DNA of 64,000 nt from an uncultured Clostridia bacterium. GTDB lineage: Bacteria > Bacillota > Clostridia > Christensenellales > Borkfalkiaceae. The notes beneath the pieces are model-generated. The model saw only the letters and a list, made by a program, of their open reading frames with translations. It did not search any database and was not told where the DNA came from. The DNA is taken from positions 45,430 to 109,429 of the forward strand of contig CALVWX010000003.1 in NCBI GenBank assembly GCA_944368215.1, in the 5' to 3' direction. Position 1 is the stretch's first letter, and each line of letters opens with the position of its first letter. The translations under genes and the position numbers were made by a program. This document shows positions 48,986 to 63,762 of this stretch, piece after piece.

Positions 48986-49014
48986 TTTACTTTTACAAAA
49001 TTGCGTAATATAAT
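48986..49014 (+). promoter_or_regulatory. Promoter of spo0A
   Basis: TTTACT (48986-48991), a 17-bp spacer and TATAAT (49009-49014), 34 bp before the start codon. Confidence 0.65.
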
Positions 49015-49048
49015 TTATTTACCAATTAAAAAGCGGAGCGAAAAATAT

Positions 49049-49819
49049 ATGAAAAACATTAATATTGTAATTTTGGACAGCAGCGAGGAGTTTTCAGACG
49101 AGTTAAAAAATTATTTTGACCGCACAGAAGATTTCAATGTTTGCGGCGTAAGCGCAAACGGCAATGTGGGCATAAGCCTTATTAATCAGTTCAAGCCCGA
49201 CGTCGTAATTTTAAACCTTGTTCTGAGCGGAACCGACGGATTGGGCGTAATGGATTACATAAAGCAGAATAAGCTTGCATGCGCAATAATCGTCGTTTCC
49301 AACTTCGGCGACGACAAAATAATAGACACGGCCATTGCGCGCGGTGCAAAATATTATTTTGTAAAGCCCGTTTCTGCCGAAAATGTTGCACAGAGAATAC
49401 GGGACGTGCTCAATGACAAAGTGCCTTCCTATAATATCGCCGCAGATGTGCGCGATAAAAGAAGGGTGGCGTCTCTGGACGAAAAAATCAGCAATATTTT
49501 CATCTCTATAGGCATTCCGCCCCATATAAAGGGTTATCAGTATCTGCGCGAAGGCATAAAAATGGCCGTTGAAAATCCGTCTATAATAAACAGTGTTACA
49601 AAAGAGCTCTATCCTGAAATCGGCAAAAAATTTGCAACTACGGCAAGCAAGGTGGAGCGAGCAATCCGCCATGCGATAGAAGTCGCGTGGAACCGCGGCC
49701 GCGTCGACGCAATAAATGCCATTTTCGGAGTAAGGGTATACATAGGAAGCGAGCGCCCGACCAATTCCGAATTTATAGCGCTCGTAGCCGATAAGCTCAT
49801 TCTTGAAGATTTAATTTGA
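49049..49819 (+). CDS. spo0A: Spo0A-type response regulator with altered phosphorylation site
   Basis: 256 residues from the ATG at 49049 (GGAGCG upstream). N-terminal receiver (~1-120) and C-terminal Spo0A effector domain (~145-256) with the three-helix DNA-binding core (LYPEIGKKFATTASKVERAIRHAIEVAWNRG) that defines the sporulation master regulator. The receiver keeps Asp10, Ser84 and Lys106 but has Ser at 11 and Asn at 56 (codon 49214-49216), where Bacillus Spo0A has the phospho-acceptor Asp56. It may be constitutively active or controlled another way. An exact 0A box lies upstream. A terminator follows at 49833. Confidence 0.93.
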   Translation: MKNINIVILDSSEEFSDELKNYFDRTEDFNVCGVSANGNVGISLINQFKPDVVILNLVLSGTDGLGVMDYIKQNKLACAIIVVSNFGDDKIIDTAIARGAKYYFVKPVSAENVAQRIRDVLNDKVPSYNIAADVRDKRRVASLDEKISNIFISIGIPPHIKGYQYLREGIKMAVENPSIINSVTKELYPEIGKKFATTASKVERAIRHAIEVAWNRGRVDAINAIFGVRVYIGSERPTNSEFIALVADKLILEDLI

Positions 49820-49991: not shown

Positions 49992-52154
49992 TTGAAAAAG
50001 TCTGCACTCTTCCGCAAACTGAATAAATCGACTATTTTTAAAGCCGTGCTTACAGGGCTGATAATCGTTGCAGTTGAAATAATCTGCGGCTCGCTCATCT
50101 TCAGCAGTTATACTTCGCATACCTATCAGGAAGCGTATGCCGAATATGACAGCTACATCTCAAACGTTGCAGAAGGCGTTGTAAGTACTATCGGAGACGG
50201 GGCAGATTACTCGTCATCCGAAGTTCAGAACCAACTCAAATCACTCGTAGGAGACAGCTACGTCCTGTTCAGCGAAGCTGGCGGCGGCCGGATAGTGGGA
50301 GAAGGCTGGGCGCTTTCGGGAACGCTTGAAAGCTACGGTATAGACCAATTTGAAACGGGGCTGTTCGAGATTGACGGAACGACGTACGCTTTTTGTTCCA
50401 GGTCTCTGGGCGGCGTGTACCGCCTCGGTTTCGTCGATGATTTTACCGACAGACAGGCCGCCATCGACGGACTGGTTTCCAATATGGTCGCCTATCTCGT
50501 CATTGCGGGAGTATTTATTATCGCGGTTTTTATTTTCTATGTGAACTGGGCAGGCTACCGCGCGTTTACGCCCAAGCATGCCTATAAATTTGCCGTAGGA
50601 AAAGACGGAAAAATTATAAGTTACAATAAAAAATTCCGCGAAGATTTCGGTGCGATAACCAAGATGGACGTCGATTTCGCAAAGTATTCCGAAGGATACA
50701 ACATCATAAGCGTAAACGGCGTTAAAGGCGAAAAGACGCTGGCTTTCACCGTCGATAAAAACGACAAAAAATATGTCGTCCGCGCCGATGAAATCAAAAA
50801 TTCTACCGGCGTAGTCGACGCTTCCGATTCAGAAGGCGGTGAGATTACCTCCACGGGCAAAGCCATGGCTTCGCTCTCGAAGGCGTTTGACGACTTCAGC
50901 CACCGCGGCAAGCGCACGCTGATTGGTATTATCGTCATTACAAACCTCACGCAGATAGGCGGACTGTTCGGCAAACAGATGGCTTTGGACGTTCAAAAGG
51001 AGGTAATCCGCAAGGCGCAGGAAAAATTCAGGTATGTCTATGAACTCGACTTCGGCCGTATGGGCATTGCCTGTCCCGACGGAAACAAATTCAACGTTCT
51101 CATTGCGGGAATGGCGGATAATCTCGCTTATCTCGCCCAGCCGATAAAGATGGAGGACAACCTGTTCGTTGCAGAACTTCGTTCGGGTTTTGCCGTCTGC
51201 GACGATACAATGCCGGTTTTGGATTTCTCTTACGCAATGCAGGCGGCAGATGCCGCGCTTCAACGCTGTTTCGATACAAAAGTTGCCGATTTTCTCATTT
51301 ACCACGAGTCGCAGAAGAGCGTTTATGCGAAGTACTTCATTAAGTATGATATTAAAACAATGCTCGCGGAGGGCGCGTTCGAGCTTGAGTATCAGCCCCA
51401 GTACAATGTGCGCGAAGGCCGCATAGAAGGTTTCGAGGCGCTGTTCAGGGTAAAGAAGAGCTGGGACGTAAACGTAGACACGTTCTCATTTATTACATAT
51501 GCCGAGCGCACGGGCGCGATGGTACAGCTGGGTGATTTCATTTTTGATACGGGCATGCGTTTTGCTAAACAACTTGAAGACAAAAACGTTTCGGTATCCC
51601 TCAATGTTTCGCCCGTGCAGCTGATGCAGGCCGGATTCACTGAAAACTTTTTGCGCATATTCCGCAAATACGATTTAAAGCCCGGTTCCGTCTGTGTGGA
51701 AATTACCGAAAGTTTCCTCATGAACAACTTCGACGAAACCCTGCGCAAACTCACCATTCTGCAGCAGAACGGCGTAGCCATTCACCTCGACGACTTCGGC
51801 ACGGAATATTCTTCGCTTCTGTATATCAAAAAACTGCCTATTTCTACAATAAAAATAGACAGAGAATTTGTGCAAGACGTTGCAAAGGACAAGACCAGTC
51901 AGGCAATTATAAGATTCATAACCAACATCGCCCGCCTGATAAACTGCAAAACTATCTGCGAAGGCGTTGAAACGCCGCAGGAGTACGATATGCTCAAAGC
52001 GCTGGGCTGCGATACAGTTCAAGGATGGCTTATAGGCAGGTCCATGAAGCCTGAAGACGCTCTTGACATTATCGATACATTCGATTACGAAAAGGCCGCG
52101 GCGGCAAAGAATGCCCAGCTGGCCCAAATCAAACAGCCTAAATTCGGCAAATAA
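49992..52154 (+). CDS. Membrane-bound EAL phosphodiesterase with degenerate GGDEF
   Basis: 720 residues from a TTG at 49992 (GAGGGG upstream). TM helix at ~18-37, an extracytoplasmic sensor region to ~155, a second TM helix (~160-185), a PAS-like/linker part, a degenerate GGDEF-type domain (~300-455, no GGDEF motif) and a C-terminal EAL domain (~460-700). EAL residues are intact: EAL (482-484), LNVSPVQ, EITES, DDFGT (Asp600-601), IDREF, and EGVE...QGW. It should hydrolyse c-di-GMP to pGpG. It is paired with a second EAL protein and followed by a c-di-GMP riboswitch. Confidence 0.92.
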   Translation: MKKSALFRKLNKSTIFKAVLTGLIIVAVEIICGSLIFSSYTSHTYQEAYAEYDSYISNVAEGVVSTIGDGADYSSSEVQNQLKSLVGDSYVLFSEAGGGRIVGEGWALSGTLESYGIDQFETGLFEIDGTTYAFCSRSLGGVYRLGFVDDFTDRQAAIDGLVSNMVAYLVIAGVFIIAVFIFYVNWAGYRAFTPKHAYKFAVGKDGKIISYNKKFREDFGAITKMDVDFAKYSEGYNIISVNGVKGEKTLAFTVDKNDKKYVVRADEIKNSTGVVDASDSEGGEITSTGKAMASLSKAFDDFSHRGKRTLIGIIVITNLTQIGGLFGKQMALDVQKEVIRKAQEKFRYVYELDFGRMGIACPDGNKFNVLIAGMADNLAYLAQPIKMEDNLFVAELRSGFAVCDDTMPVLDFSYAMQAADAALQRCFDTKVADFLIYHESQKSVYAKYFIKYDIKTMLAEGAFELEYQPQYNVREGRIEGFEALFRVKKSWDVNVDTFSFITYAERTGAMVQLGDFIFDTGMRFAKQLEDKNVSVSLNVSPVQLMQAGFTENFLRIFRKYDLKPGSVCVEITESFLMNNFDETLRKLTILQQNGVAIHLDDFGTEYSSLLYIKKLPISTIKIDREFVQDVAKDKTSQAIIRFITNIARLINCKTICEGVETPQEYDMLKALGCDTVQGWLIGRSMKPEDALDIIDTFDYEKAAAAKNAQLAQIKQPKFGK

Positions 52155-52192
52155 CGGCCGCGCTGCGGCATTATAAATAAGGGGAAAAGCAA

Positions 52193-53596
52193 ATGCGCTA
52201 TTCTTTATTGGAACTCAACCTTCAACCGGGCGTGGAAATATTTCTCGTCGTGCTATTTCTTATTGTCTGTATAGTGGGGATATTTTTTCTCGTCCGCGGC
52301 ATCAGAAAGGACAGAAACCGTATTCTCGCCGAAAAATATGAAATAAACGAGCTCGACAGCGCCGTGTTCACTCAGATGCTGGCGCATGCTTATTCCATCG
52401 CCGACGAGGACACGCATTTTGCCGTTATGCTCCTCCGCATAAACGATGAAGCAACTCTCCGCGCGTCAATCGGCGAAAAGCAGATGAAGCGCGTAATGTA
52501 TACGGTTAAAGAACGGCTCATCCGCGTAATTCCGCACGGCTCCAAAATCTGCCGGCATGAAGCCGACCAGTTCATTGTTTTCATTCCCGAAGACCTTGAC
52601 GGCATTGCCATGACCGACATTGCAACCGTCGCAATAAAGGAAGTGACCAAGCCTGTTTCGCTCATCAGCCGCGCAAAAATCACATTGAACGTCAATGTGG
52701 GATTTGCCGTAAACAACGAATTCAGCACAGATTCCGTCGATTTGCTGCAAAATGTTCAGATTGCCCTTGCAAATGCCGCAAGGGAGGGCGTCAACCTGTT
52801 TTCAATCTACTCGCGCGAACTTGCCGAACAGCAGACTGAAGAATACAAGCAGTATCAGGAAATCAGAAAGGCTATTTCCGAAAAACAATTTGTTCTGTAT
52901 TATCAGCCCATTTATGATCTGAACGGAAATAAGACTGTTGCCTACGAATCGCTTATACGCTGGCAGCACCCCGAGCGTGGCCTTCTCATGCCCGATAAAT
53001 TCCTGCCCATCATGGAGCAGACAGGCGACGTCAACTGGCTCGGCATATGGGCGTTCGAGGAAATGCTCAAAGGTTATACCCGATATGCAACAGAACAGCG
53101 CGGCGACGCGAATATGATTTTTTCTTTCAATCTTTCTCCTAAGCAGCTTATGTATCCGCAGCTTGCCGAGGACATTCGCAAGGTATTTAAAAAATATCAT
53201 GTTCCCGCGCAGAATATCTGTCTTGAGATAGTCGAGTTTTCTATATTCGACAAAGTTCCCGAAGTCGCTTCCAACGTTCTCAAGCTCACGCAGATGGGGT
53301 TCAAGATTGCAGTGGACGATTTCGGCCTTGAAATGTCTTCCCTGAAGCTCCTCGAAAATTACAACTTCGACTGGATAAAGCTCGACAACAAATTTATAGA
53401 ACAATCCAAGGACGATTTCCTTATCGGCGGCGTAATTGATACACTTGTCGGTTTTGCAGAGCGCAAGAACTGCAAAATTGTTGCAGAGGGAGTTGAGGAC
53501 GAAATTATCTGCAACTACGTAAGAAGCCTTAAAATTCATTACGGTCAGGGCTATTATTTCGGTAAACCCCAAACCTATGAAGAATATTTTAAATAA
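52193..53596 (+). CDS. EAL-domain protein with degenerate GGDEF
   Basis: 467 residues. One N-terminal membrane helix (~13-36), a GGDEF-like domain whose signature reads RHEADQF in place of GGDEF, then an EAL domain (~220-465). The EAL motif reads ESL (Glu252), with FNLSPKQ, EIVEF, AVDDFGLEMSS, IKLD, and AEGVE...QGYYFG, so the metal-binding Asp pair and general-base region are present. It is probably an active or weak c-di-GMP phosphodiesterase. GGGG precedes its ATG. It is cotranscribed with the EAL gene upstream (38-bp gap). Confidence 0.9.
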   Translation: MRYSLLELNLQPGVEIFLVVLFLIVCIVGIFFLVRGIRKDRNRILAEKYEINELDSAVFTQMLAHAYSIADEDTHFAVMLLRINDEATLRASIGEKQMKRVMYTVKERLIRVIPHGSKICRHEADQFIVFIPEDLDGIAMTDIATVAIKEVTKPVSLISRAKITLNVNVGFAVNNEFSTDSVDLLQNVQIALANAAREGVNLFSIYSRELAEQQTEEYKQYQEIRKAISEKQFVLYYQPIYDLNGNKTVAYESLIRWQHPERGLLMPDKFLPIMEQTGDVNWLGIWAFEEMLKGYTRYATEQRGDANMIFSFNLSPKQLMYPQLAEDIRKVFKKYHVPAQNICLEIVEFSIFDKVPEVASNVLKLTQMGFKIAVDDFGLEMSSLKLLENYNFDWIKLDNKFIEQSKDDFLIGGVIDTLVGFAERKNCKIVAEGVEDEIICNYVRSLKIHYGQGYYFGKPQTYEEYFK

Positions 53597-53707: not shown

Positions 53708-53737
53708 TTGACAAAATAAATGCCCGAGTGATATAAT
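53708..53737 (+). promoter_or_regulatory. Promoter of the c-di-GMP-controlled surface gene
   Basis: TTGACA (53708-53713), an 18-bp spacer and TATAAT (53732-53737). The predicted leader of ~420 nt carries the riboswitch and several hairpins. Confidence 0.8.
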
Positions 53738-53778
53738 ATTAACGATAAGGGGCCGGGAATAAAAGAATACGCAAGTTA

Positions 53779-53864
53779 ATAGCAAACTGCATGAAAATGC
53801 AGGACGCAAAGCTTAAGAGCCTAAACCGCGCATTGTTTTTGCTCGGCATGGTTGTCAGTTGCCA
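53779..53864 (+). ncRNA. c-di-GMP-I (GEMM) riboswitch aptamer
   Basis: The conserved core is recognisable in order: AGCAAAC (53781-53787), hairpin TGCAT-GAAA-ATGCA with the GAAA tetraloop (53788-53801), GGACGCAAAGC (53802-53812), GCCTAAACC (53819-53827), then a second stem-loop ending GGTTGTCAGTTGCC (~53850-53863). It matches the GEMM-I consensus that binds c-di-GMP. The aptamer's 3' end overlaps the 5' arm of the terminator at 53861, so ligand binding would be expected to prevent termination (an ON switch); the direction is inferred. It lies between two EAL genes and the secreted-protein gene at 54166. Confidence 0.85.
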
Positions 53865-53897
53865 AAGCCGCTTTTTTAAGTTGTTTTGGCTTTTTTT
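53861..53897 (+). terminator. Riboswitch-controlled terminator
   Basis: GCCAAA (53861-53866) pairs with TTTGGC (53885-53890), with partial pairing inside, followed by seven T. The 5' arm shares bases with the riboswitch aptamer. Confidence 0.65.
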
Positions 53898-53961
53898 ATT
53901 ATTACGTAAAACCTCTTTATCAATATTCTCTCTGAATATTAATTTTATAAAATTATAAAAC

Positions 53962-54007
53962 TTTGCGTGCCCTCCGGCACGCAAAAGGGCGGCGCTTCGC
54001 GCCGCCC
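53962..54007. repeat. Two adjacent strong hairpins in the leader
   Basis: TTTGCGTGCC / GGCACGCAAA (53962-53985) and GGGCGGCGC / GCGCCGCCC (53987-54007) are separated by one base. Both are perfect. Neither is followed by T's on the plus strand. They sit between the riboswitch terminator and the start of the secreted-protein gene. Confidence 0.7.
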
Positions 54008-54165
54008 CCATAATCAATTTATTTAAAATTTCCGGCATTTTTTACGGTTGAGTCTTTTTCAGATTTTTCCTCAAAAAATGCAATGCGGATTTTTATCGCC
54101 GCAGGGAGTTTACTGTATTTGCGTAAAAGCGCCGCGTGTGCATGCGCTGTATGCGGAGGAATTTT

Positions 54166-54984
54166 TTGAAAAAGCTGAGATGGGAAAAACGCCTGAAGTG
54201 GTTCAGGCTCTCAAAAATAATAATTCCTATTGCACTGGCGATTTCGCTCATCTTTGTCGGATTCACTGTATATGCCGACGAGGCGCAGAACTTTGTTATC
54301 CGCGCCAGAAATGACGACGAAATCCGCCTTTCTCTCACCATGCAGGAAGATTTGACGCGCCAGACTTCTGTTCTCTCCGTTCCGTTTACGGGCAGCCAGA
54401 CGGCTTCCACATTCGACCCCACAGAGATAAATTACGAGTCATTCATGTATGATTCCGAATCCAATGTGCGCAATATTCCCAATAATATCGCACAGCTTTC
54501 CGGACAGCATTTCGGCACGTTCTACGATGAAAACGGAACTAATTTTACGTATTCCGCTTTCAGTTTCTGGCTTGTTAATAATTCGTCACGCGCCGTCGAC
54601 GTTGATATAATAATGAACCTTGACGGGTTGATGACAGATTACAATGATTATAACCATCATATAGACGACGTCCTCCGCATAATGGTAATAGAGGACACGC
54701 CCCTTATTACCGACGATACATACACGGTTTATGCAAAGGCGGAGGACCCCGGACACCCCTATCATGAAGACGCGAACGCCCAGCCCGTCAATTACCAGAC
54801 GACCGATTTCCTTTCCGACAGGTGCATCTTCAGCCGCGAAGGCGATTTCGGTTTAAGGGATTTTGCCGCTGGCGCTTCCAAAAAGTTTACCATTGTAATG
54901 TGGCTTGAAGGCAACGACGAACAATGCACCAATGATATCTTCGGCGAGCGTGCAAAGCTTTCCATCGACTTTGTGGGGCATTGA
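54166..54984 (+). CDS. Secreted TasA/camelysin-like surface protein 1
   Basis: 272 residues from a TTG at 54166 with GGAGG six bases upstream. A basic N-terminus and one hydrophobic segment (~17-37, IIIPIALAISLIFVGFTVYA) form a signal peptide. The mature part is a predicted beta-sandwich (SAFSFWLVNNSSRAVDVDIIMNLDG) ending in the motif MWLEGNDEQC, which is shared with the proteins at 55827 and 58136. That ending is typical of SipW-dependent TasA/CalY-like matrix proteins. It is the gene directly downstream of the c-di-GMP riboswitch. A structural or biofilm role is inferred. Confidence 0.7.
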   Translation: MKKLRWEKRLKWFRLSKIIIPIALAISLIFVGFTVYADEAQNFVIRARNDDEIRLSLTMQEDLTRQTSVLSVPFTGSQTASTFDPTEINYESFMYDSESNVRNIPNNIAQLSGQHFGTFYDENGTNFTYSAFSFWLVNNSSRAVDVDIIMNLDGLMTDYNDYNHHIDDVLRIMVIEDTPLITDDTYTVYAKAEDPGHPYHEDANAQPVNYQTTDFLSDRCIFSREGDFGLRDFAAGASKKFTIVMWLEGNDEQCTNDIFGERAKLSIDFVGH

Positions 54985-54997
54985 TTTTTAATAATTC

Positions 54998-55282
54998 ATG
55001 CAAACTAAGTATTTTGCTTATATTCTTACGAATGTAACTAATGCCGTGTTATATATTGGTGTTACAAATAATCTTGCAAGGCGCATTGTCGAGCATAAAC
55101 AAGGTTCTGTCGAAGGTTTTACAAAACACTATAATGTGTACAAATTAGTTTACTACGAATGTCACAATGAAATTAAGCTCGCTATTGAACGCGAAAAACA
55201 GCTTAAACATTGGACGAGGGGTAAAAAAATATCTTTGATAACTTCAGTTAATCCCGAATGGGACGAGTTGAAACCTATCTGA
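54998..55282 (+). CDS. Small GIY-YIG nuclease-family protein
   Basis: 94 residues: YILTNVTNAVLYIGVTNNLARRIVEH holds the YIL...YIG motif with the catalytic Arg, and EREKQLKHWTRGKK the Glu, followed by NPEWDEL. This is the widespread single-domain YhbQ-like GIY-YIG family. No ribosome site is visible. The gene is AT-rich and sits immediately before three tandem palindromic repeats, suggesting a selfish or transposition-linked gene rather than part of the surface-protein system. Confidence 0.85.
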   Translation: MQTKYFAYILTNVTNAVLYIGVTNNLARRIVEHKQGSVEGFTKHYNVYKLVYYECHNEIKLAIEREKQLKHWTRGKKISLITSVNPEWDELKPI

Positions 55283-55294
55283 CTTTATTCTTTA

Positions 55295-55740
55295 TTGTCA
55301 TACTGAGCGGAACGAGGAGGGGTTACCCTACGAATGCAGTCGAATGTATCTTGCTAGGTATGAAGTCAAACAAGATCTTTCGACTTCGTTCGCAGTCGCT
55401 CACTTCGCTCAAGATGACGGGGGAGTAGATATGGTTCGATATGAAACCTCCACATTGTCATACTGAGCGGAACGAGGAGGGGCTCATCCGACGAGTGCAG
55501 TCGAATGTATCTTGCTAGGTATGAAGTCAAACAAGATCTTTCGACTTCGTTCGCAGTGCTCACTTCGCTCAAGATGACGGGGGAGTAGATATGGTTCGAT
55601 ATGAAACCTCCACATTGTCATACTGAGCGGAACGAGGAGGGGCTCATCCGACGAGTGCAGTCGAATGTATCTTGCTAGGTATGAAGTCAAACAAGATCTT
55701 TCGACTTCGTTCGCAGTCGCTCACTTTGCTCAAGATGACA
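55295..55740. repeat. Three tandem 160-bp copies of a palindromic dispersed repeat
   Basis: Copies start at 55295, 55455 and 55615 with a period of exactly 160 bp. Each has outer arms TGTCATACTGAGCG / CGCTCAAGATGACG and inner arms around TCGAATGTATCTTG / CAAGATCTTTCGA, so one ~125-nt unit folds back on itself. They resemble the dispersed 'TGTCAT-CTGAGCGAAG' palindromes found in many bacterial genomes. Further copies are at 56795-56923 and 58960-59069. No gene is present in 55283-55826. Confidence 0.85.
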
Positions 55741-55826
55741 CGGGTGTGAGGTATTAAAAAATAAAACAGGCTTTCGCGGTTTAACAAAAACCGTAAAAAT
55801 AAAAAAGAAAAAAAGGAGAAAAATAA

Positions 55827-56585
55827 ATGAAAGCAACAAAAAAAATCGTAGGCGCAACCGCAGCGTTAGTGGCAGCCGTAGCACTCTCCGCCGGCTCCAC
55901 ATTCGCATGGTTTGCAACGAGTGGTGAAGCAACGGTAAGCGGCATGCAGGTTAATGTGCAAGTGCCCAACAATATGCTTATCGCAGAGGGTTTTCAGGAT
56001 GATATCAATAGTCTTATATCATCAACTTTGAATTTATCTGAAAGTTTTAGCACAGCAACTACCCTTAAACCTGCTGACTTGGAAAATGCAGATGGTACTG
56101 TTACAGTTCGTGAACCTGAAAACTATACAACTGACCCTACACCCAGCACACCCGGCAGTGTTACTACTTGGACAACTTTAGGTACGTTTAGTGTATCTGG
56201 AGGTGAAAGCGACGCAGATTCTCATGATATTAGTGAGTATGTTTTACTTCAGCCTATTACAGTAGCGAGAACTAACGACGAAGATAGTGCAACAACATAT
56301 TCATTAAATGCATCCGTAACTATTTCCGGCATACAAAATAATACATATACTTTCCTTAAGGTAGGATTCCTTTGTGGCACTACTTTTGCAGAAGCTGCTT
56401 TTGCAAATCAAGCGGAAGGGACTGTTACTACAAGCAACACTGTTGTTAATGCAACTGCCAATGATAATGTAGTGCAGAAAGTTTATCTGGCAATATATTA
56501 TGATGGTTCAGATCCGGATTGTATATCAAATAATGCACCTTCGATTAATAATCTCGGAATTTCGATTACATTTACAGCAGGCTAA
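55827..56585 (+). CDS. Secreted TasA/camelysin-like protein 2 (SipW-type signal)
   Basis: 252 residues, AAAGGAG before the ATG. The N-terminus MKATKKIVGATAALVAAVAL...STFAWF is a SipW-dependent signal peptide, with AWF around the cleavage region. The mature part is Thr/Ser/Asn-rich and beta-type, with TYSLNASVTISGI and the C-terminal YYDGSDPDCISNN motif. It is paralogous to 58136 (near-identical signal, same C-terminal motif). Its base composition is AT-rich compared with nearby housekeeping genes, pointing to transfer or fast evolution. It likely forms extracellular fibre or surface material processed by the SipW enzymes at 59292 or 63199. Confidence 0.75.
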   Translation: MKATKKIVGATAALVAAVALSAGSTFAWFATSGEATVSGMQVNVQVPNNMLIAEGFQDDINSLISSTLNLSESFSTATTLKPADLENADGTVTVREPENYTTDPTPSTPGSVTTWTTLGTFSVSGGESDADSHDISEYVLLQPITVARTNDEDSATTYSLNASVTISGIQNNTYTFLKVGFLCGTTFAEAAFANQAEGTVTTSNTVVNATANDNVVQKVYLAIYYDGSDPDCISNNAPSINNLGISITFTAG

Positions 56586-56600
56586 TTAAAATTTTAAAAA

Positions 56601-56634
56601 ACACCAAAGTGCTGTTATAACAGCGCTTTGGTGT
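56601..56634 (+). terminator. Terminator after surface protein 2
   Basis: ACACCAAAG / CTTTGGTGT with inner GCTGTTATAACAGC. A long imperfect palindrome. Confidence 0.75.
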
Positions 56635-56685
56635 AAAATTGGTGGCTCCACATGTGTCTCTTACATTAAGGTGACGAAGCGGGGG

Positions 56686-57012
56686 AGAAGCAACAAAATA
56701 ATAATTAGCATTAAAAAACCTCGTGCGGTTTCCGCGCGGGGTTTTTAATGCCCGCCGACCGAGCTCCCATTAACGCTTCAACTTTAAAGGGCATTTGTCA
56801 TACTGAGCGGAGAGAGGAGGGGCTTTTTGCCGACGAGCGCAGTCGAATGTATCTTGCCGGGTATAAAACCGAACAAGATCTTTCGACTTCGTTCACTTAC
56901 GTTCTCTTCGCTCAAGATGACAGGACGAAAAAAGAAGCAATAAAATAATAATTTACATTATCTAACCCCCGCACGGAGACCGCGCGGGGGTTTTAATGCC
57001 CGCTGACAAAGC
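56686..57012. repeat. Duplicated hairpin unit flanking a dispersed repeat
   Basis: A ~80-bp unit occurs at ~56686-56768 and again at ~56930-57012. Each has 'gaagcaa(c/t)aaaataataatt', a strong G+C-rich hairpin (CCTCGTGCGG / CCGCGCGGGG in copy 1; CCCCCGCACGG / CCGCGCGGGGG in copy 2), then 'ttttaatgcccgc(c/t)gac'. Between them lies dispersed-repeat copy 4 (56795-56923). No gene is visible in 56586-57048. Confidence 0.7.
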
Positions 57013-57048
57013 TTTAAACGACATGCTAATTTTTTAAATATTAATTTA

Positions 57049-57881
57049 TCAAAAAATTATCGCTTCGCCGCATTGGGTTGGTTGTTTATGAGTTATGTTG
57101 CCGTTCTTATCTATGTCTATAAAATCTGTGCCGTTATGCAAATCACAATAGCAAAGGGAATGGTTTTTATACTCTAAAAGTGTCTCTCCGTGGACGTTGC
57201 CGTCATGAGCAATGTAAATTATTGTATCGCCTGAAGCAATGAATGACGAATAATCATAGATATCTGCGCAGATAATTATGCTGAAACTTTTCCGTCGAAA
57301 ATAAAACGCGGCTTTTCATAATCGCAGTATTTGTTTAAATACGGGTCAGAGAAGTTGGGGATATATTGGTTGTTCTGATCATGGTCTATGTTCCAATATT
57401 CGCATCGCTCCGTCACATATTCATTAAAGAGCTGACAGAGTTTATCGGGTAAATCCACATCGGCAAAACTCTGCTTGTCCCATATCAGCACATTTCTGCC
57501 GTGCTCAAATACTACACATGTATTAAAATATCCATGCCCTTCACGATATTGCCAGCAAATTGTTCCTGCAACTATTATTAAATTTGCATATTTTTCGGTC
57601 AGTATATGAAACGGTGTTTTATCATCGGCAAACCATTGGAATGTCGATTCAGAAAAAAGCCCTTGCGAATTTTTCATTCTGTTCAAAAATATTGCTTCCG
57701 GAAGTACCAGCATATATTTTTCTTTGGTATTTTGTTTTAATACAGGTTCAATAATTTCTGTGATTTTATTTTCGAGGACGGTTAAGTAGTCGGTTTCAGA
57801 ATTCACGCTTCCGTCAACGTAATTTTCAGTCACATAGTCATCGACAAATTTTTTGACATTATTTATCATTAAGTATTTCAT
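57049..57881 (-). pseudogene. Nitrilase/carbon-nitrogen hydrolase-like gene split by a frameshift
   Basis: A 201-residue frame (57276-57881) is followed in the next frame by ~75 more uninterrupted residues to a stop at 57049. Part 1 has the Glu of VLPEAIF and the Lys of LIWDKQSF; part 2 begins SFSIIICADIYDY, supplying the Cys, so the full Glu-Lys-Cys triad of the nitrilase superfamily is only present if both are joined. One missing A in the GGAAAAGTTTC run (~57280-57290) would explain the break. It could be a recent pseudogene, a sequencing error or, less likely, programmed shifting. The start ATG at 57881 has AAGGAGA. The enzyme's substrate is unknown. Confidence 0.7.
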
Positions 57882-58020
57882 GTTTGTTATCTCCTTGTTA
57901 TTATTTTATTGCTTTCGCGGTTTCGCACTTACAAAATAACATAATAAGGTAACAACTGTTCTGCACAATTAAAAAAAAGAAAATTACTTGTATATATTTC
58001 TCGAATAAATTTGTAAATAA

Positions 58021-58049
58021 TTGCAATATTAGCCAACTTATAGTATAAT
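58021..58049 (+). promoter_or_regulatory. Promoter of surface protein 3
   Basis: TTGCAA (58021-58026), a 17-bp spacer and TATAAT (58044-58049), with a leader of ~80 nt. Confidence 0.65.
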
Positions 58050-58135
58050 TTTTGCGGAATCGCTAATTTGAAATTGTCCAGATTGTCGAGCGTGATAAAT
58101 GCATTAAAATTTACTAAAGAAAAAGGAGAATTTGG

Positions 58136-58897
58136 ATGAAGGCAACCAAAAAGATTGTCGGCGCAGTTGCAGCTTTGGTTGCGGCCGCGGCGCTTTCCTT
58201 TGGCTCTTCATTTGCATGGTTTGCGGGCAACGGCGCTGCCTCGGCGACGGGAATATCTGTCGGGGTAGCCGTGCCTACAAATCTTTTTATTGCCGAAGGA
58301 ATTGTTACAAGTCCAAGCAGAATTACGGGTGCTTCGCTAACTTTCAACGACTCTTCAGCAACTTTGAATCCTTCAACTTTATCCAATAACGGCGGCTCGT
58401 ATGAAGTGAGTATTCCTGACGAAGACAGCTGGATTACGCCGCCTTCATTTGATGGTGCCGGCGAAGCAGGAAGATATACAGACGTCGGATCGATTGCTCT
58501 CAATGAAGATGAAAGCGCAAACGGCCATGATTTAAGCGATTATGTGCTTACGCAAAGAATGACGTTGATGAGAAAAGAATCCATTTACGCTACTTATATG
58601 TTATCAGCTACGGTTACCATCACAGGGTTTGCCGAAGGCGATAACTGTTGGAAATTTTTAAGATTTGCCTTCTTTGACGGCAATTTTTTTATTTCTTCGG
58701 GCAATTTGACATCTCCGTCGGACGACGGTTCTTTCGTTCTGCCGTTTACACTATATACCGATGCCAGAGACTATTCACCCATACAGCTTGTGTTTATAGT
58801 ATGGTTCGAGGGTACCGACCCCGATTGTATCAATGCAAACGCTTTGAATATGAGCGAATTAAACTTTTCAATTCTGTTTTCCGCCACACCTTACTGA
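58136..58897 (+). CDS. Secreted TasA/camelysin-like protein 3 (SipW-type signal)
   Basis: 253 residues, AAAGGAG before the ATG. Signal MKATKKIVGAVAALVAAAALS...SSFAWF matches protein 2 almost position by position. The mature part has NEDESANGHDLSDYVLTQRMTL, a counterpart of the HDISEYVLLQPITV segment in protein 2, and ends VWFEGTDPDCINAN plus a final beta strand. Codon use is closer to the chromosome than that of protein 2. Its own promoter lies upstream, so it can be expressed independently of the riboswitch. Role as surface or matrix protein inferred. Confidence 0.75.
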   Translation: MKATKKIVGAVAALVAAAALSFGSSFAWFAGNGAASATGISVGVAVPTNLFIAEGIVTSPSRITGASLTFNDSSATLNPSTLSNNGGSYEVSIPDEDSWITPPSFDGAGEAGRYTDVGSIALNEDESANGHDLSDYVLTQRMTLMRKESIYATYMLSATVTITGFAEGDNCWKFLRFAFFDGNFFISSGNLTSPSDDGSFVLPFTLYTDARDYSPIQLVFIVWFEGTDPDCINANALNMSELNFSILFSATPY

Positions 58898-58959
58898 AAT
58901 ATTAAAAAAGCGCTGCCCGCAGTCCCGGCCGAGCGAGGTTATTTTATAATCAAAACGCA

Positions 58960-59128
58960 TTGTCATACCGAGAGTTGAGCAAGTTTTTCTCCAAACAGCA
59001 CACTGTGCTGTTTGGCTTTCCTTTGTCCGTCGCGTTGCTCCGATATCCTTCGACAGGCTCAGGATGACAAAACCATGCACCACTTAATGCTTTTGCTTTA
59101 AGGGGGCCTGTTGCTCAAGATGACACGG
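58960..59128. repeat. Diverged copy of the dispersed palindromic repeat
   Basis: TTGTCATACCGAG at 58960 pairs with CAGGATGACA ending near 59069. A short extra 3' fragment ('gctcaagatgacacggg') follows at ~59113. An inner hairpin, CCAAACAGCACA / TGTGCTGTTTGG, occupies ~58992-59017. No gene is visible in 58898-59291. Confidence 0.65.
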
Positions 59129-59214
59129 GCCGGTACGGTCAACCGCGCAAGCCGAACATAAATTGAAATAATTGTACATTTTGCCTTAAAAACTTTTTGT
59201 TATCTATTGATTAA

Positions 59215-59243
59215 TTGTGAAAAGTATGTTAAAATAATATAGG
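59215..59243 (+). promoter_or_regulatory. Candidate promoter of the SipW-AAA-DUF2357 operon
   Basis: TTGTGA (59215-59220), a 17-bp spacer and TATAGG (59238-59243), ~50 bp before the first gene. Moderate match. Confidence 0.45.
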
Positions 59244-59291
59244 TATATATTTACATGCCGCTGAATGGCGGCGTCCAGGAACAAATCAGAA

Positions 59292-60065
59292 ATGGCTATG
59301 TCGCAAAAAACCAAGAAAATACTCAACATCGTCGTTGACGTTATAGTATTTATAATCCTTGCTTTTGCAATAATTTTTTGCGTAAGTATAATTTCTTCAC
59401 GGGCGAGCGGATACGAAGGCTATACGGTAATATTTGGTCGTTCGTATCTTGCAGTCAGAACCGATTCAATGGAGAAAGATTATTATACAGGTGAAGTCGG
59501 CGAGGATAATTTCGGACCCGGTGACCTTATCATAATCAGGATGGTCGAAGGTGAAGAAGCCCAAAATCTTGAAGTTGGAACGATAATTACTTTTAAAACG
59601 ACATTAAATCAAGACAATACGGCATACGTACTTAACACACACCGCATAATAGAAAGCCACGACGGTTGGTATACAACTCATGGTGACAATGCTCCAGAAG
59701 GCACTAATGAAACTGTTTTTGTTAACGATATTGTTGGTATTTATGAGGGTGACAAAATCGAAGGCTTAGGCAACTTTGTTCTGTTCATGAGCTCGTTCGG
59801 CGGGTTCTGCACGTTTGTTTTAGTGCCTTCGTTGCTTGTGGTTATCTATTTCGCCGTCAACCTTGTGTTTGTAATCAAAAAGGAAAAGGCAAAGCAAGGC
59901 GCCGAGGCGGAGGAAGAGAATCAGAAAAAGCTCGCCGAAGAAAAGGAAAGGATGAGGCAGGAAATTCTTGCCGAGCTCGCGCAGCAAGGCAACGCACCAG
60001 CGGCAGATTCCGCAGAGCATCCAAGCCAAGGCGGGCAGACGGACAGCCCTGAAGAGGACGAGTAA
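59292..60065 (+). CDS. SipW-type (Ser/His) signal peptidase I
   Basis: 257 residues from the ATG at 59292 (AGGA upstream); in-frame ATGs at 59265 and 59298 are alternatives. TM helix ~10-35, catalytic Ser59 in RTDSME, His117 in LNTHRII in place of the usual Lys, a second TM helix (~165-190), then a ~65-residue cytoplasmic tail rich in Glu/Lys/Gln. The Ser/His dyad and two-helix layout define the ER/SipW type that processes TasA-like proteins in Bacilli. It heads a four-gene operon and lies just downstream of two secreted proteins with SipW-type signals, its likely substrates. Confidence 0.88.
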   Translation: MAMSQKTKKILNIVVDVIVFIILAFAIIFCVSIISSRASGYEGYTVIFGRSYLAVRTDSMEKDYYTGEVGEDNFGPGDLIIIRMVEGEEAQNLEVGTIITFKTTLNQDNTAYVLNTHRIIESHDGWYTTHGDNAPEGTNETVFVNDIVGIYEGDKIEGLGNFVLFMSSFGGFCTFVLVPSLLVVIYFAVNLVFVIKKEKAKQGAEAEEENQKKLAEEKERMRQEILAELAQQGNAPAADSAEHPSQGGQTDSPEEDE

Positions 60066-60121
60066 CAAAACGCGTTTTTACTGCGCGTTAGCGCAAAATT
60101 TATACTGATAAGGGAATTGAT

Positions 60122-61675
60122 ATGGCTAATTTTGCTGCGTATTACGTTGAGTTTTTGTGGAACTGGCTGCAAAACGTATGGTACTTTATAAGTCAGTTCT
60201 TCTATAACATTTATAAGCTGCTTATCGCCGACGCGATAGGTTACTGCGTCAACCTCGGCGAGCATGTTTCGGGGTTCGATGTATGGGGCTGGATTTGCCT
60301 AATAATCGTCTCTGCTGCAAATATAGCGCTTCTGTTCTTTATCTGTTACAGACTGTTCCAGCTTATAAGACGCTACTTCATTTTCCGCTCGCGCGAAGTG
60401 GATAAAGATATGCTTTTGGAAGAGGTTGCGCGCCTCAAGGAACAGGCCGACGAACTTGTGAAGGAAAAAAGCAAAATTTTTGCGCTCAAGCTCGGACAGG
60501 ACATCAGAACGGGAGAATTCCAACCCTCTCTTGAAGCGGGCGTCAGCAGTGATACGACGGCGGAGAATGGACAGACTGCCGCAGGAACTTCAAGATTTAC
60601 AAAACTTGTCAATATTGACGAAAAATACGACACAGAGCCAAATATAATCTACATGCAGGACGACGACATGCTGACCCTTCCCCAAATTGTCACGCGGTTC
60701 GTCAATTTTGCGGCTTCACAGTTGAAGCTTTATTATACGGAGGAAACAATCCGCAGGTTTATGGCGGGTCTTGCAACTTCCAAAATAATCATTCTCGAAG
60801 GCATATCAGGTACTGGTAAAACTTCGTTGCCCTATGCGATGGGTAAATTTTTTAATAACAACGCATCGATAATTTCCGTTCAGCCTTCGTGGCGCGACAG
60901 AGCGGAGCTTATAGGCTACTACAACGAATTTACAAAAAAATTCAACGAAACCGATTTTCTTGCGGCCATTTATGAAGCGTCTCTGCGCGAAGATCCTAAC
61001 TTCGTCGTGCTCGACGAAATGAACCTTGCGCGAATTGAATACTATTTCGCAGATTTCCTGTCAATAATGGAAATGCCGGACGTTGCGGAGTGGAAGATAG
61101 ATCTTATAGCCGCGCCCCAGCCGACCGACCCCAAGAATGTGGTTTACGGCAAGTTCCTCGTGCCGCAGAATATCTGGTTTGTAGGCACGGCAAACAACGA
61201 CGATTCGACATTCTCCATTACCGATAAGGTTTACGACCGTGCGGTCACTTTGGAACTCAACACCAAGGCCGATTACTTCGACGCGCCTCTCACCGAAAGT
61301 TATACCTGCTCATATGGCTATCTCGACAGTCTGTTCGACAAAGCCAAGCACGATTATTCGCTGTCGGAACGCACGCTCGAACTTATCAAAGAATTTGATT
61401 TGTTCATACGCGACAAGTTCAAAATCAGCTTCGGTAACCGTATCTTAAAACAGCTTACACTGTTTGTACCCGTTTATATAGCGTGCGGCGGAACCGAGCT
61501 TGAAGGCGTCGACTTTATCATAGCATCTAAAATTTTGCGTAAATTCAGGTCGCTCAACCTGCCGTTCCTGACGAAGGAACTCAGTGAACTGGCCGCTTTC
61601 TTCGACGATAAATTCGGCGTGGGTTCAATGAAATACTGTCACGAATATGTCGCCGAACTGCAGAAATTAACTTAA
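60122..61675 (+). CDS. Membrane-anchored McrB-like AAA+ ATPase
   Basis: 517 residues. N-terminal hydrophobic region (~10-35) and a clear TM helix (~60-85, WICLIIVSAANIALLFFICY), a coiled coil (~95-120), a linker, then an AAA+ domain from ~195. Walker A is GISGTGKTS (227-235), Walker B FVVLDEMNLARIEYYFADFLSIME with Asp298-Glu299, and sensor 1 GTANNDDST. The DEMNLAR-EYYF signature is that of the McrB/MoxR-related branch. McrB proteins are normally soluble GTPases with a DNA-binding N-terminus; here that is replaced by membrane helices. It is in one operon with SipW-type peptidases and a DUF2357 protein. Confidence 0.85.
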   Translation: MANFAAYYVEFLWNWLQNVWYFISQFFYNIYKLLIADAIGYCVNLGEHVSGFDVWGWICLIIVSAANIALLFFICYRLFQLIRRYFIFRSREVDKDMLLEEVARLKEQADELVKEKSKIFALKLGQDIRTGEFQPSLEAGVSSDTTAENGQTAAGTSRFTKLVNIDEKYDTEPNIIYMQDDDMLTLPQIVTRFVNFAASQLKLYYTEETIRRFMAGLATSKIIILEGISGTGKTSLPYAMGKFFNNNASIISVQPSWRDRAELIGYYNEFTKKFNETDFLAAIYEASLREDPNFVVLDEMNLARIEYYFADFLSIMEMPDVAEWKIDLIAAPQPTDPKNVVYGKFLVPQNIWFVGTANNDDSTFSITDKVYDRAVTLELNTKADYFDAPLTESYTCSYGYLDSLFDKAKHDYSLSERTLELIKEFDLFIRDKFKISFGNRILKQLTLFVPVYIACGGTELEGVDFIIASKILRKFRSLNLPFLTKELSELAAFFDDKFGVGSMKYCHEYVAELQKLT

Positions 61676-61733
61676 AATAAGCGTTCAGCCTAACTTGTCG
61701 GTTAGGCTGATTTTGTAAGACGGAAGGTGGAAG

Positions 61734-63197
61734 ATGGACAGGACGGCTATCAATAAGTTTTATGATAATCTCGTCGGCGACGGCGAGGCGATAAATAATT
61801 TTATTTCGGCGATACGCAGCGGAGACAACGAAATTCTGCATAACTCCGTGTCGCAGGCGGTTATGCTCGATGACGGATGGATTCTGACCATCGAGAGTGC
61901 GCTGTATTCTATTGAACAAATAGTGCGCAATCCGAGAAAATTCATTGCCGAAGAGGATGATCTGGTCGACGTCGCAAAGGCACGCAGGGTTACGTCAAAA
62001 ACCGTGCGTCATCTCGCGTCACATTCGCAGTATGTGCGCAATATAGATAAAAACGGGGATGTGATTCCGAGCAAATTGCTCGTCTCCTATCTTGACGACG
62101 ACCTCGCTATTTACGAGAACCGTTTTATCTGCGCGCTTATAAACAGGCTTATTTTATTCGTCGAACAGCGCCACAGAGACCTTGACGGGAAGATGGATAT
62201 CTCGACGATGACAAATCTCTGCATGAAGTCGCAGTTCAATTACGGCGACAGCAAATTTACGTGCGACATACGGCTTCAGGTTCAGGAGCCGCCCGTCGAC
62301 AGTGCCGAGATCGAAAAAAACAGAGACTTGTTCGAGAGGGTCGAAACTATCCGCAAGCGCCTGCGCATTCTTCAGAATACAGATTTTATGAAATCGATGA
62401 GCGGTAAAAAGGTAGTCCGTCCGCCCATACAGAAGACCAATCTTTTAATGAAGAACGTCGACTACAACAACTGTTATAAACTTTGGTTGTTTATTTCGGC
62501 TTATACAAACGTCGGATATTCAATAGACGTCAAAGATAAAAACCTGCCTGTCGACGGCGATTATTACGACGATCTCACTTATATCGCCGGCATGAGCCTG
62601 AAAAATATGTTCGACAGAAACATTCTTTCCCGCGAAAGGTATGCATCGATTCCTTATACCGAGCGCGAGGAGAAGCAGTACAAGCTTATCACAAACTATA
62701 CGTTTACTCCCAATTTTGATAAGTCGCGCGAAACGGCCGGGCCGGAGAGCATAAACGAATACTATTTCCGCCGCATGAAGGACGAGCTCACCAAGCTTGC
62801 CGCCGAGAACGAAATTGCGATAGAGCGCGACCTTCAGGTAAATTTTTCGAAATTTTACCGCACGATATCGAGAATCAACGATGAATTGTTCGAAGATGTT
62901 ATCGAACAGTTCGCCAACGAAAGTCTGGACAGGTTTGAAAAATCGGAGCTCACAAAAAAGAGAAAGGAGATTCTCAAACAGATGGAGCGCGTAAGGCGGC
63001 GCGCCATGCTTACAAAGCTCAAATGGGAAGACCTTGAAAAGGCCCAGCGCAAGGAAGAGCGTGCGAGGGCCAGGCTTGAAAAGCTTAAAAATTCTTACAG
63101 ACAGGAGCGCGCTGCGCGAAAAGTCAAGACCGTTAAAAACATGCAGATAGTCGTTAAAACGTCAGACGACGATGACGACCAGCGCAGCGAGGATTGA
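61734..63197 (+). CDS. DUF2357-like protein without a visible nuclease domain
   Basis: 487 residues, soluble. The DUF2357 region (~55-145) contains NPRKFI, VTSKTVRHLASHSQYV, PSKLLVSYLDDDLAIYENRFICAL with the YENRF block at 127-131. A middle helical part has a conserved-looking YKLWLFISAYTNVGYS. The C-terminal ~100 residues form a long basic coiled coil ending in an acidic tail (SDDDDDQRSED). DUF2357 proteins usually partner McrB-like ATPases and often carry a PD-(D/E)XK nuclease; I see no such nuclease motif. It sits 58 bp after the AAA+ gene with GGAAGGTGG upstream, so is the probable partner of that ATPase. Confidence 0.75.
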   Translation: MDRTAINKFYDNLVGDGEAINNFISAIRSGDNEILHNSVSQAVMLDDGWILTIESALYSIEQIVRNPRKFIAEEDDLVDVAKARRVTSKTVRHLASHSQYVRNIDKNGDVIPSKLLVSYLDDDLAIYENRFICALINRLILFVEQRHRDLDGKMDISTMTNLCMKSQFNYGDSKFTCDIRLQVQEPPVDSAEIEKNRDLFERVETIRKRLRILQNTDFMKSMSGKKVVRPPIQKTNLLMKNVDYNNCYKLWLFISAYTNVGYSIDVKDKNLPVDGDYYDDLTYIAGMSLKNMFDRNILSRERYASIPYTEREEKQYKLITNYTFTPNFDKSRETAGPESINEYYFRRMKDELTKLAAENEIAIERDLQVNFSKFYRTISRINDELFEDVIEQFANESLDRFEKSELTKKRKEILKQMERVRRRAMLTKLKWEDLEKAQRKEERARARLEKLKNSYRQERAARKVKTVKNMQIVVKTSDDDDDQRSED

Positions 63198-63198
63198 A

Positions 63199-63762
63199 TT
63201 GAATAAAAAGAAGGTACTTTCCGCGGTTGCGACCGTGTTTACCGCGCTTATTGTTGCCTTGACGGCCTATGTCGTTATAAGTATAATTGTCGCGCGCGTC
63301 CAGAATAAAGACGTCAATCTTTTCGGCTATTCAATGGGCATTGTTCTGACGCCGTCAATGGAGCCGGAGATTGGCGTGGGCGATCTGATAATTTTTACGC
63401 ATAACGAAATTTGCGAAGTTCAGGCGGGAGACGATATTGTTTTTGTCGCGGGCAACGGTTTCGATTCGGCAATACAGGGACAAAACGTCGTGCATAGAGT
63501 GCGCGAAGTAACAACCGAAAACGATGAAATCAGCATTATAACATATGGTATAAATAATGCAAACGACGACTTGACCCCGGTCAGCGCAGAAAATTTTGTA
63601 GGAATATGTATATATCATTCCGCAGGATGGGGCGCATTTTTCTCATTTATGATGCGCTACGGCGTAATAATTCTCATCGCTGTTGTCGCATTGCCGTTTA
63701 TCGTAAAACAGATTATTAAAATTGTCAAACTTTCGAGGGAAAAGGAAGGAGACGATAAATAA
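63199..63762 (+). CDS. Second SipW-type (Ser/His) signal peptidase I
   Basis: 187 residues from a TTG at 63199 behind GAGGA and 1 bp after the DUF2357 stop; an in-frame ATG at 63172 has no site. TM helix ~8-32, Ser53 in TPSMEP, His99 in VVHRV, TM helix ~145-170. It is the same Ser/His class as 59292 but shorter and without the long acidic tail. Two SipW-type enzymes in one operon, flanking an AAA+/DUF2357 pair, suggest different substrates or a paired complex. The operon ends with a terminator. Confidence 0.87.
   Translation: MNKKKVLSAVATVFTALIVALTAYVVISIIVARVQNKDVNLFGYSMGIVLTPSMEPEIGVGDLIIFTHNEICEVQAGDDIVFVAGNGFDSAIQGQNVVHRVREVTTENDEISIITYGINNANDDLTPVSAENFVGICIYHSAGWGAFFSFMMRYGVIILIAVVALPFIVKQIIKIVKLSREKEGDDK

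Follow-up and report, generated by a model that had tools for sequence, protein, structure and literature searches.

The closest described relative of the locus studied here is CoCoPALM, a system named in one paragraph by Bell et al. (eLife 2024; PMC11090510), its function being left unexplored there. According to the main text of that paper, signal peptidases are associated with the system and its nucleoside triphosphatase (NTPase) has an FtsB-like transmembrane (TM)/coiled-coil part; the same text has McrC carrying DUF2357. Another McrB-family protein, PcdA of Staphylococcus aureus, is described in outline as co-opted for cell division (PMC10602043), and the fibre protein TasA is described as carrying Phe at P2' of its cut site (PMC10269814). 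Here we analyse a block of genes from an uncultured Clostridia bacterium, in a stretch of 64,000 nucleotides that we call the window (GenBank assembly GCA_944368215.1, contig CALVWX010000003.1, positions 45,430 to 109,429). At 53708-63762 of the window, a cyclic di-GMP (c-di-GMP) riboswitch, secreted proteins, two SipW-type signal peptidases, an McrB-type NTPase and a DUF2357 protein lie together. By its NTPase with an NxD motif, its DUF2357 protein and its signal peptidases, we class the locus as a member of CoCoPALM.

A conserved association of the NTPase with signal peptidases

Along the + strand, the block runs from a promoter-like site and the riboswitch through three genes for exported proteins (SEC1, SEC2 and SEC3), a first signal peptidase gene (SIPA), the AAA+ NTPase and DUF2357 genes (the motor pair) and a second signal peptidase gene (SIPB). 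The initial annotation had listed a GEMM riboswitch, three secreted proteins sharing a C-terminal (W/Y)xxGxDxxC motif, two Ser/His SipW-type peptidases, a membrane-anchored McrB-like AAA+ ATPase and a DUF2357 protein, and every item was confirmed. Missing from it were two EAL genes (49992-53596), a GIY-YIG open reading frame (ORF), a CN-hydrolase-like ORF and a repeat array.

Neighbourhoods of NTPase homologues were collected from samples of genomes of the family, the order and the class, and were counted with our own profiles (AAA, DUF3, SIP3, SEC1c and EALd); these were built from the counted loci, so that the counts are partly circular for seed members. Seventy-three loci scored at least 560 bits, and the counting set consisted of the 47 that are flanked by 4 kb or more to the left and to the right. 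Some genomes contributed two loci each (G192, G332, G344 and G562), and the AAA matches left unfetched were mostly partial ones at contig ends (for example G370, G311, G348, G360, G522 and G625:C2).

A signal peptidase was found within 6 kb on the same strand at 47/47 loci, and at least two were found at 43 of them. The NTPase gene lies between two peptidases at 37/47 loci and has both downstream at 6/47. DUF2357 was present at all 47 loci, and SEC1 at 41. Gene order varies across these linked loci, which are spread over several families of the order and over other orders of the class. SipW-type genes are found at every complete motor-branch locus that was examined. Two other branches of the AAA family, taken from the searches that yielded the motor loci, served as controls: at tandem AAA-DUF2357-AAA loci, 0/26 AAA genes had a signal peptidase within 6 kb, and in a third AAA branch the figure was 1/11. 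When 111 AAA domains were placed on a quick tree, the three groups separated (SH-aLRT 91, 92 and 100), with a long-branch warning for L084. From these branch counts, the N-terminal TM anchor and DUF2357 are common to all three branches and the peptidases belong to one. We conclude that the pairing of motor and signal peptidases goes beyond chance and that the association is solid. The initial annotation had considered that homologues of the AAA+/DUF2357 pair might occur mostly without SipW genes, or next to a nuclease. The former is not the case within the branch (47/47), and related genes outside it do occur without SipW; as for the latter, no nuclease was recognised in the DUF2357 proteins of the window and of 10 relatives.

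AAA matches at E <= 1e-80 occurred in 71/297 genomes of the order and 15/341 of the class; at the phylum level, among 348 genomes, the window's own was the sole match. These totals include the window genome, the tandem branch and the third branch. The tandem-core sister loci (L063, L065, L067-L073 and L140-L142) often have very large neighbouring ORFs that include a hydrophobic segment, and their NTPases have an N-terminal hydrophobic segment. L093 (656 and on) has a riboswitch and, upstream of the peptidase, an ORF of 2182 aa that contains a hydrophobic segment; no SEC1 match is found, and the EAL genes are downstream.

The NTPase and its DUF2357 partner

The NTPase gene (60122-61675, + strand) matches the PADLOC model PDC-M26A (E = 2.3e-42). 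Walker A and Walker B are invariant, and N358-x-D360-D361 (N358-N-D360-D in the window) is found in 24/24 aligned homologues. Its profile matches McrB structures with E values of 5.5e-6 to 1.4e-5, and E. coli McrB with an E value of 1.1e-9 over 204 columns. The protein is, as annotated, a membrane-anchored McrB-type NTPase, with an N-terminal hydrophobic segment and a coiled-coil-like stretch; the hydrophobic segment was found in 86/88 AAA genes of the motor branch at 560 bits or more (some contigs being counted twice). Pfam at E <= 1 shows no similarity to FtsB in the window protein, and no specificity domain (modified-DNA-binding) was recognised on it by Pfam, PADLOC or NCBIfam.

The DUF2357 gene (61734-63197, + strand) encodes a protein with a charged helical C-terminal stretch. 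It reached 28.5 bits for PF09823 in the genome scan (cut-off 23.3) and was unlisted when the window protein was run through hmmscan, so that we regard it as a divergent member of the family. The cut-off was exceeded by 6/8 motor-branch and 1/2 control-branch relatives. The window protein showed no recognised nuclease, nor did 10 relatives scanned at E <= 0.01, 8 of them from the motor branch, and an ordinary type IV restriction system was rejected on this ground. Since no alignment of this protein with E. coli McrC could be obtained, the label 'McrC-like' stems from the Pfam family.

Signal peptidases and secreted proteins

Both peptidases are of the SipW/archaeal type and have the catalytic Ser and His. 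SIPA (59265-60065, + strand) matches the SipW equivalog NF046067 with E = 2.5e-19, and SIPB (63172-63762, + strand), which overlaps the DUF2357 gene, with E = 2.2e-17, both below the cut-off of that equivalog; SIPB scores 73.3 bits with TIGR02228, above its cut-off. Ser and His were found in 128/132 SIP proteins, and Ser and Lys in 0/132.

TIGR02228 has four matches in the window genome, two in the block and two in a separate cluster, L146 (contig C29, 7495-16829), which holds two peptidases together with ORFs that begin with signals of the FARY, FSRY or LGRY kind; no McrB or DUF2357 match was found in this cluster. At three class-level loci (L135-L137), three to five signal-peptidase matches, part of them without catalytic residues, occur with many short ORFs that have a hydrophobic segment.

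SEC1 (54166-54984, + strand) is a single-pass membrane protein; its start, a TTG behind GGAGG, was picked by eye, and the longest ORF begins at 54136. SEC2 (55827-56585, + strand) and SEC3 (58136-58897, + strand) are secreted proteins with SipW-type signals, STFA-WF and SSFA-WF respectively. The motif that the three had been said to share is present near their C-termini, as WLEGNDEQC in SEC1, YYDGSDPDC in SEC2 and WFEGTDPDC in SEC3. Among the 51 aligned sequences of the SEC1 family (window included), E, G and D of the motif are invariant, and W and C are at least 90% conserved. SEC1 and SEC2 are related over the C-terminal half of SEC1 (hhalign probability 97.8, E = 1.1e-12, 138 columns). The A, W and F of the predicted A|WF cleavage site are invariant in 15/15 aligned proteins of the SEC2/SEC3 type, of which 5/15 match the SipW-dependent signal model TIGR04088 at E <= 0.1, window SEC2 not being among those displayed. 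In an AlphaFold2 model of SEC1 (mean pLDDT 90.8), the N-terminus is a long helix and the ectodomain is rich in beta structure. Its best structure match is to ephrin-receptor domains (E = 3.5e-3), and searches with SEC1 and SEC2 against PDB sequences gave nothing significant.

Predicted control by c-di-GMP

A sigma-70-type promoter-like site (TTGACA-18-TATAAT, 12/12 matches, 53708-53737, + strand) precedes a c-di-GMP-I riboswitch aptamer (53771-53866, + strand; RF01051, 65.8 bits, gathering cut-off 35), which is the GEMM element of the initial annotation. It is followed by a terminator-like hairpin with seven T (53861-53890, + strand; fold -13.3 kcal/mol), the 5' arm of which includes the final 6 nt of the aptamer. 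Because aptamer and hairpin compete for these nucleotides, the ligand should favour read-through, and the riboswitch is predicted to be an ON switch for SEC1 and the genes co-transcribed with it. A hairpin with a T-run that consumes the last 6 to 10 nt of the aptamer was found for 11/15 riboswitches tested; at L048 the script fails on a G before the T-run and an equivalent hairpin is visible by eye, and the riboswitches of L055, L056 and L057 gave no overlapping hairpin by script.

Under filters that were stricter and lost some weak matches, the window riboswitch is the sole RF01051 match in its genome, and a match was found in just 35/297 genomes of the order. Among window-type loci with upstream DNA searched, a riboswitch lies 5' of SEC1 at 11/12, the window and 10 others (a count that leaves out L147). 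Among type-B loci that have 4 kb or more of upstream DNA, it was found at 7/8 (L055, L057, L059, L087, L088, L129 and L132) and was not found at L090; it is also present at the shorter type-B locus L056, and at L091 and L093. The riboswitch thus occupies an equivalent place in two sub-branches of the motor tree.

The initial annotation called the locus 'c-di-GMP-gated'. This is supported for the SEC1 transcript; ahead of the motor genes of the window, before SIPA, lies a promoter-like site of their own (59207-59235, 9/12 matches; the scan found 36 such sites, with 19.9 expected). With repeats, extra ORFs and this second promoter-like site in the window, control of the motor genes by the riboswitch is suggested by the relatives rather than by the window copy.

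Two EAL genes precede the riboswitch. The first (49992-52154, + strand; 720 aa, Pfam EAL E = 4.1e-62), a homologue of which lies inside the present/absent block described below, has kept the catalytic residues, EALRNEEDDKEEQ at 13 sites checked. The second (52193-53596, + strand; 467 aa, Pfam EAL E = 2.8e-60, GGDEF E = 4.1e-12) has kept the EAL catalytic residues as well, ESLRNEEDDKEEQ, and its GGDEF motif is degenerate by eye. Both are apparently working phosphodiesterases, judging from these residues. Three GGDEF matches are present in the window genome, one of them inside the block. An EAL-domain protein is encoded on the same strand within 9 kb at 37/47 loci, upstream in 35; the matches at L128 and L138 are weak. 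When 20 hand-picked proteins were checked by Pfam, 20/20 matched, 19 of them over the cut-off. In other branches, the upstream EAL proteins have lost most catalytic residues (the 13 sites read EVWVKCIE-LGVG or NVQVKACD-RIEQ, to name two), and at type-B loci an intact EAL protein is encoded downstream.

The block as one unit

In its compact form, exemplified by L036, SEC1 to SIPB take up about 6.5 kb in all, with gaps of 65, 168, 48 and 61 nt and then a 4-nt overlap. In L055, L057 and L087, SEC1 shares 4 nt with a decayed EAL gene. At L048 and L147, the whole block with the EAL pair lies between a spo0A homologue and polA-coaE (identities of polA and coaE confirmed by Pfam). Three genomes of the genus (L155, L158 and L160) have an empty site, where spo0A directly meets polA, and in two others (L157 and L163) the interval holds ORFs without matches to the block profiles. 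Eleven regions were fetched for this comparison; L156, L159, L161 and L164 are without both flanks, and L162 and L165 are too short to annotate. In the window genome (1.67 Mb, 46 contigs), the contig stops at the window end and polA opens another contig. The block is thus gained or lost whole, and this speaks for the EAL genes being part of it. The spo0A gene of the window (49001-49819, 272 aa, Pfam Spo0A_C E = 5e-40) is directly upstream of the block, and may or may not be a meaningful neighbour. Among the matches, the closest named relative of the host is Candidatus Coproplasma excrementipullorum, with 85% over the DUF2357 protein.

Additional features of the window copy

The window copy is longer than those of its relatives through a repeat array, a GIY-YIG ORF and a CN-hydrolase-like ORF, ORF calls in the locus scripts being mechanical. 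The GIY-YIG ORF (54998-55282, 94 aa), which encodes a nuclease domain, lies between SEC1 and SEC2. It is present in 5/73 motor loci (the window, L062, L097, L125 and L145) and 1/12 window-type loci, and was dropped as a fixed part of the block; it is also found in a motor-less SipW cluster (L149). Given that it adjoins SEC1 in the window, L062 and L125, a link to the block is possible. Directly behind it is a tandem array of 2.8 copies of a 160-bp unit (55294-55739), which belongs to a repeat of about 130-160 bp that is dispersed through the 1.67-Mb genome (46 matches). A second small GIY-YIG ORF (C1:34090) lies about 2.3 kb from a copy of this repeat, and the repeat and the GIY-YIG ORFs possibly form a nuclease-linked repeat family. 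The CN-hydrolase-like ORF (57276-57881, - strand, 201 aa), between SEC2 and SEC3, gave a weak match to apolipoprotein N-acyltransferase (E = 1.4e-5, below cut-off) and occurs in the window locus only, among 122 loci. Window positions before about 42000 were covered by the RNA-family search only.

Possible function and alternatives

We consider the chances to be even that, under the control of c-di-GMP, the block works as a CoCoPALM-type module for surface fibres, by which TasA-like fibres are processed, anchored and assembled, with the restriction-derived NTPase as switch or motor. Binding of c-di-GMP would let transcription past the terminator, turning on SEC1 and the co-transcribed genes. 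SEC2 and SEC3 would leave by the Sec channel, and cleavage at A|WF by the two SipW-type enzymes would yield subunits that add to one another, and SEC1, which shares its C-terminal region with them and would keep its TM helix and cytoplasmic tail, would anchor the fibre. The NTPase may form a ring at the membrane, with the DUF2357 protein as its activator, in the way that McrC activates McrB. Because it comes without a nuclease, we infer that it acts on proteins and not on DNA: NTP would be spent on the SEC1 tail or the peptidases, licensing, ordering or ending the growth of the fibre. The EAL protein next to SEC1 would provide a second c-di-GMP input, here through phosphodiesterases that apparently work and in other branches as a decayed and perhaps receptor-like EAL.

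A more specific version, which we consider less likely than not, makes the restriction-enzyme motor the engine of a new kind of surface-fibre machine: the membrane-anchored McrB ring, with DUF2357 as activator, would drive strand-swapping subunits, once cut by SipW, to assemble in order on the SEC1 membrane anchor or to be released from it, c-di-GMP acting through the ON riboswitch and through the EAL protein, decayed in most branches to a receptor docked on the anchor. Such inside-out control by an EAL receptor at an anchor is comparable in logic to LapD.

Several observations weigh against the fibre module. The motor-less cluster L146 exists, so SipW as such can do without a motor. On the side of control, window-type relative L053 has no riboswitch, at the locus or elsewhere in its genome; in the third large sub-branch of the motor tree, the search found the riboswitch at 0 loci; an EAL match is missing at 10/47 loci; and, in the window, repeats and a promoter-like site part SEC1 from the motor genes, with the ORF for a GIY-YIG nuclease domain sitting between SEC1 and SEC2. 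As for the motor, the model of the DUF2357 protein is poor (pLDDT 63.6), with a long C-terminal helix (405-468) in it; a fold search with this low-confidence model was empty at E <= 0.001, and the DUF2357 profile gives no alignment with E. coli McrC. The fibre components raise similar doubts. A SEC1 match is missing in range at 6/47 loci (L093, L103, L105, L108, L109 and L136), SEC2 has no solved relative by sequence, and no solved structure matches the SEC1 model at E <= 0.001. Among its weaker matches, archaeal filament subunits come at rank 4 (7ueg, E = 0.010) and rank 7 (7pnb, E = 0.014), with TM-scores of at most 0.30, a resemblance that we take as no more than a hint.

The same genes could serve other ends. 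A membrane-tied AAA+ domain beside peptidases and a tailed membrane protein would suit retrieval or quality control, in which the ring pulls misprocessed pre-subunits or SEC1 from the membrane as a housekeeping unfoldase and not as an engine of assembly; to our knowledge, no unfoldase is known among McrB-type rings that have a DUF2357 partner, and we hold this explanation to be unlikely. It is also improbable, in our estimation, that the block is a surface-linked anti-phage defence, whose McrBC-like pair would sense infection and act on an envelope or surface protein and not on DNA. The match to PDC-M26A, which is a candidate-defence model, speaks for it, as do the fold family, shared with a restriction enzyme, the patchy occurrence within the genus of a block that comes and goes whole at one site, and the GIY-YIG ORF of the window and four other motor loci. 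The constant partners are nevertheless signal peptidases, a secreted anchor and EAL proteins, not a nuclease or a methyltransferase; 'PDC-M26' is not mentioned in the openly licensed literature searched; and a c-di-GMP riboswitch upstream would, as far as we know, be unusual for a defence system.

Little probability, too, is left by our estimate for a positioning scaffold, that is, an McrB relative without a DNA role that places the secretion site as PcdA places the division plane. The outlined co-option of PcdA (PMC10602043) and the FtsB-like part reported in the main text for the CoCoPALM NTPase (PMC11090510) favour it; the absence of FtsB similarity by Pfam, already mentioned, and of any recognised division-related feature in the loci does not. 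Finally, an ordinary SipW cluster might have come to lie beside a decayed McrBC pair by chance, which the second, motor-less cluster of the genome and the dispersed repeats inside the window copy would suit. A signal peptidase is kept at 47/47 related loci despite the shifting gene order, across families and orders, and by this conservation chance neighbourhood is ruled out, with a probability close to nil.

If the fibre module is real, SipW/TasA-type fibres gain an energy-using, signal-gated layer, and restriction machinery another route out of DNA defence. For CoCoPALM, so far named from gene neighbours, the riboswitch, the EAL partner, the frequent SEC1 anchor and the present/absent unit add up to a testable hypothesis, namely an McrBC-type NTPase that would act at the membrane on proteins, under second-messenger control. 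Compact relatives such as L036 are practical for transfer to Bacillus.

Comparison with known systems

The Bacillus TasA-SipW-TapA operon, as far as its description goes, resembles the block in having an archaeal-type signal peptidase beside small secreted proteins; we know of no McrB-type NTPase, DUF2357 protein, riboswitch or EAL protein in that operon. The aromatic residue at P2' is another likeness, A|WF here and Phe in TasA as described (PMC10269814). SEC1 and SEC2 gave no significant match to TasA by sequence, nor did SEC1 by fold. The BsaA-SipW fibres of Clostridium perfringens are likewise a clostridial case in which secreted matrix proteins go together with a peptidase of the SipW type; in the text of the paper on them, McrB and AAA are absent, and riboswitch and c-di-GMP appear solely in reference titles (PMC7395162).

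With EcoKMcrBC the motor pair shares the McrB-type AAA+ core (the profile match given above) and a DUF2357-family partner. Unlike EcoKMcrBC, it has no recognised specificity domain or partner nuclease and a membrane anchor is in place; NxD stands for NxxD, and the DUF2357 partner is not alignable to E. coli McrC. PcdA is likewise an McrB-family protein outside restriction, and differs by its EVE domains and division partners, with no signal peptidases mentioned in the outline or abstract (PMC10602043).

The initial annotation knew of no described system of this kind. A name exists, CoCoPALM, with signal peptidases pointed out (PMC11090510); the wiring, for its part, is not in the main text of that paper, where c-di-GMP, cyclic di-GMP, riboswitch, SipW, biofilm and Clostridia have 0 mentions. 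Beyond this paper and its preprint, the openly licensed literature returned for the name is unrelated by title; it gives nothing related by title for McrBC together with SipW, and, among the papers listed, titles and the starts of abstracts show none on a c-di-GMP wiring of McrB/SipW-type loci. The main text of the CoCoPALM paper and our locus have in common an NxD McrB-type NTPase, a DUF2357 partner with a coiled coil (a long C-terminal helix in our low-confidence model), and proteins of the signal-peptidase family (PMC11090510); the N-terminal TM/coiled-coil part of the NTPase has its counterpart here in a hydrophobic segment and a coiled-coil-like stretch, with no FtsB match in Pfam. New with respect to that main text are the riboswitch, the EAL proteins, the SEC1 anchor family and the presence or absence of the block as one unit, part of which the supplement may list.

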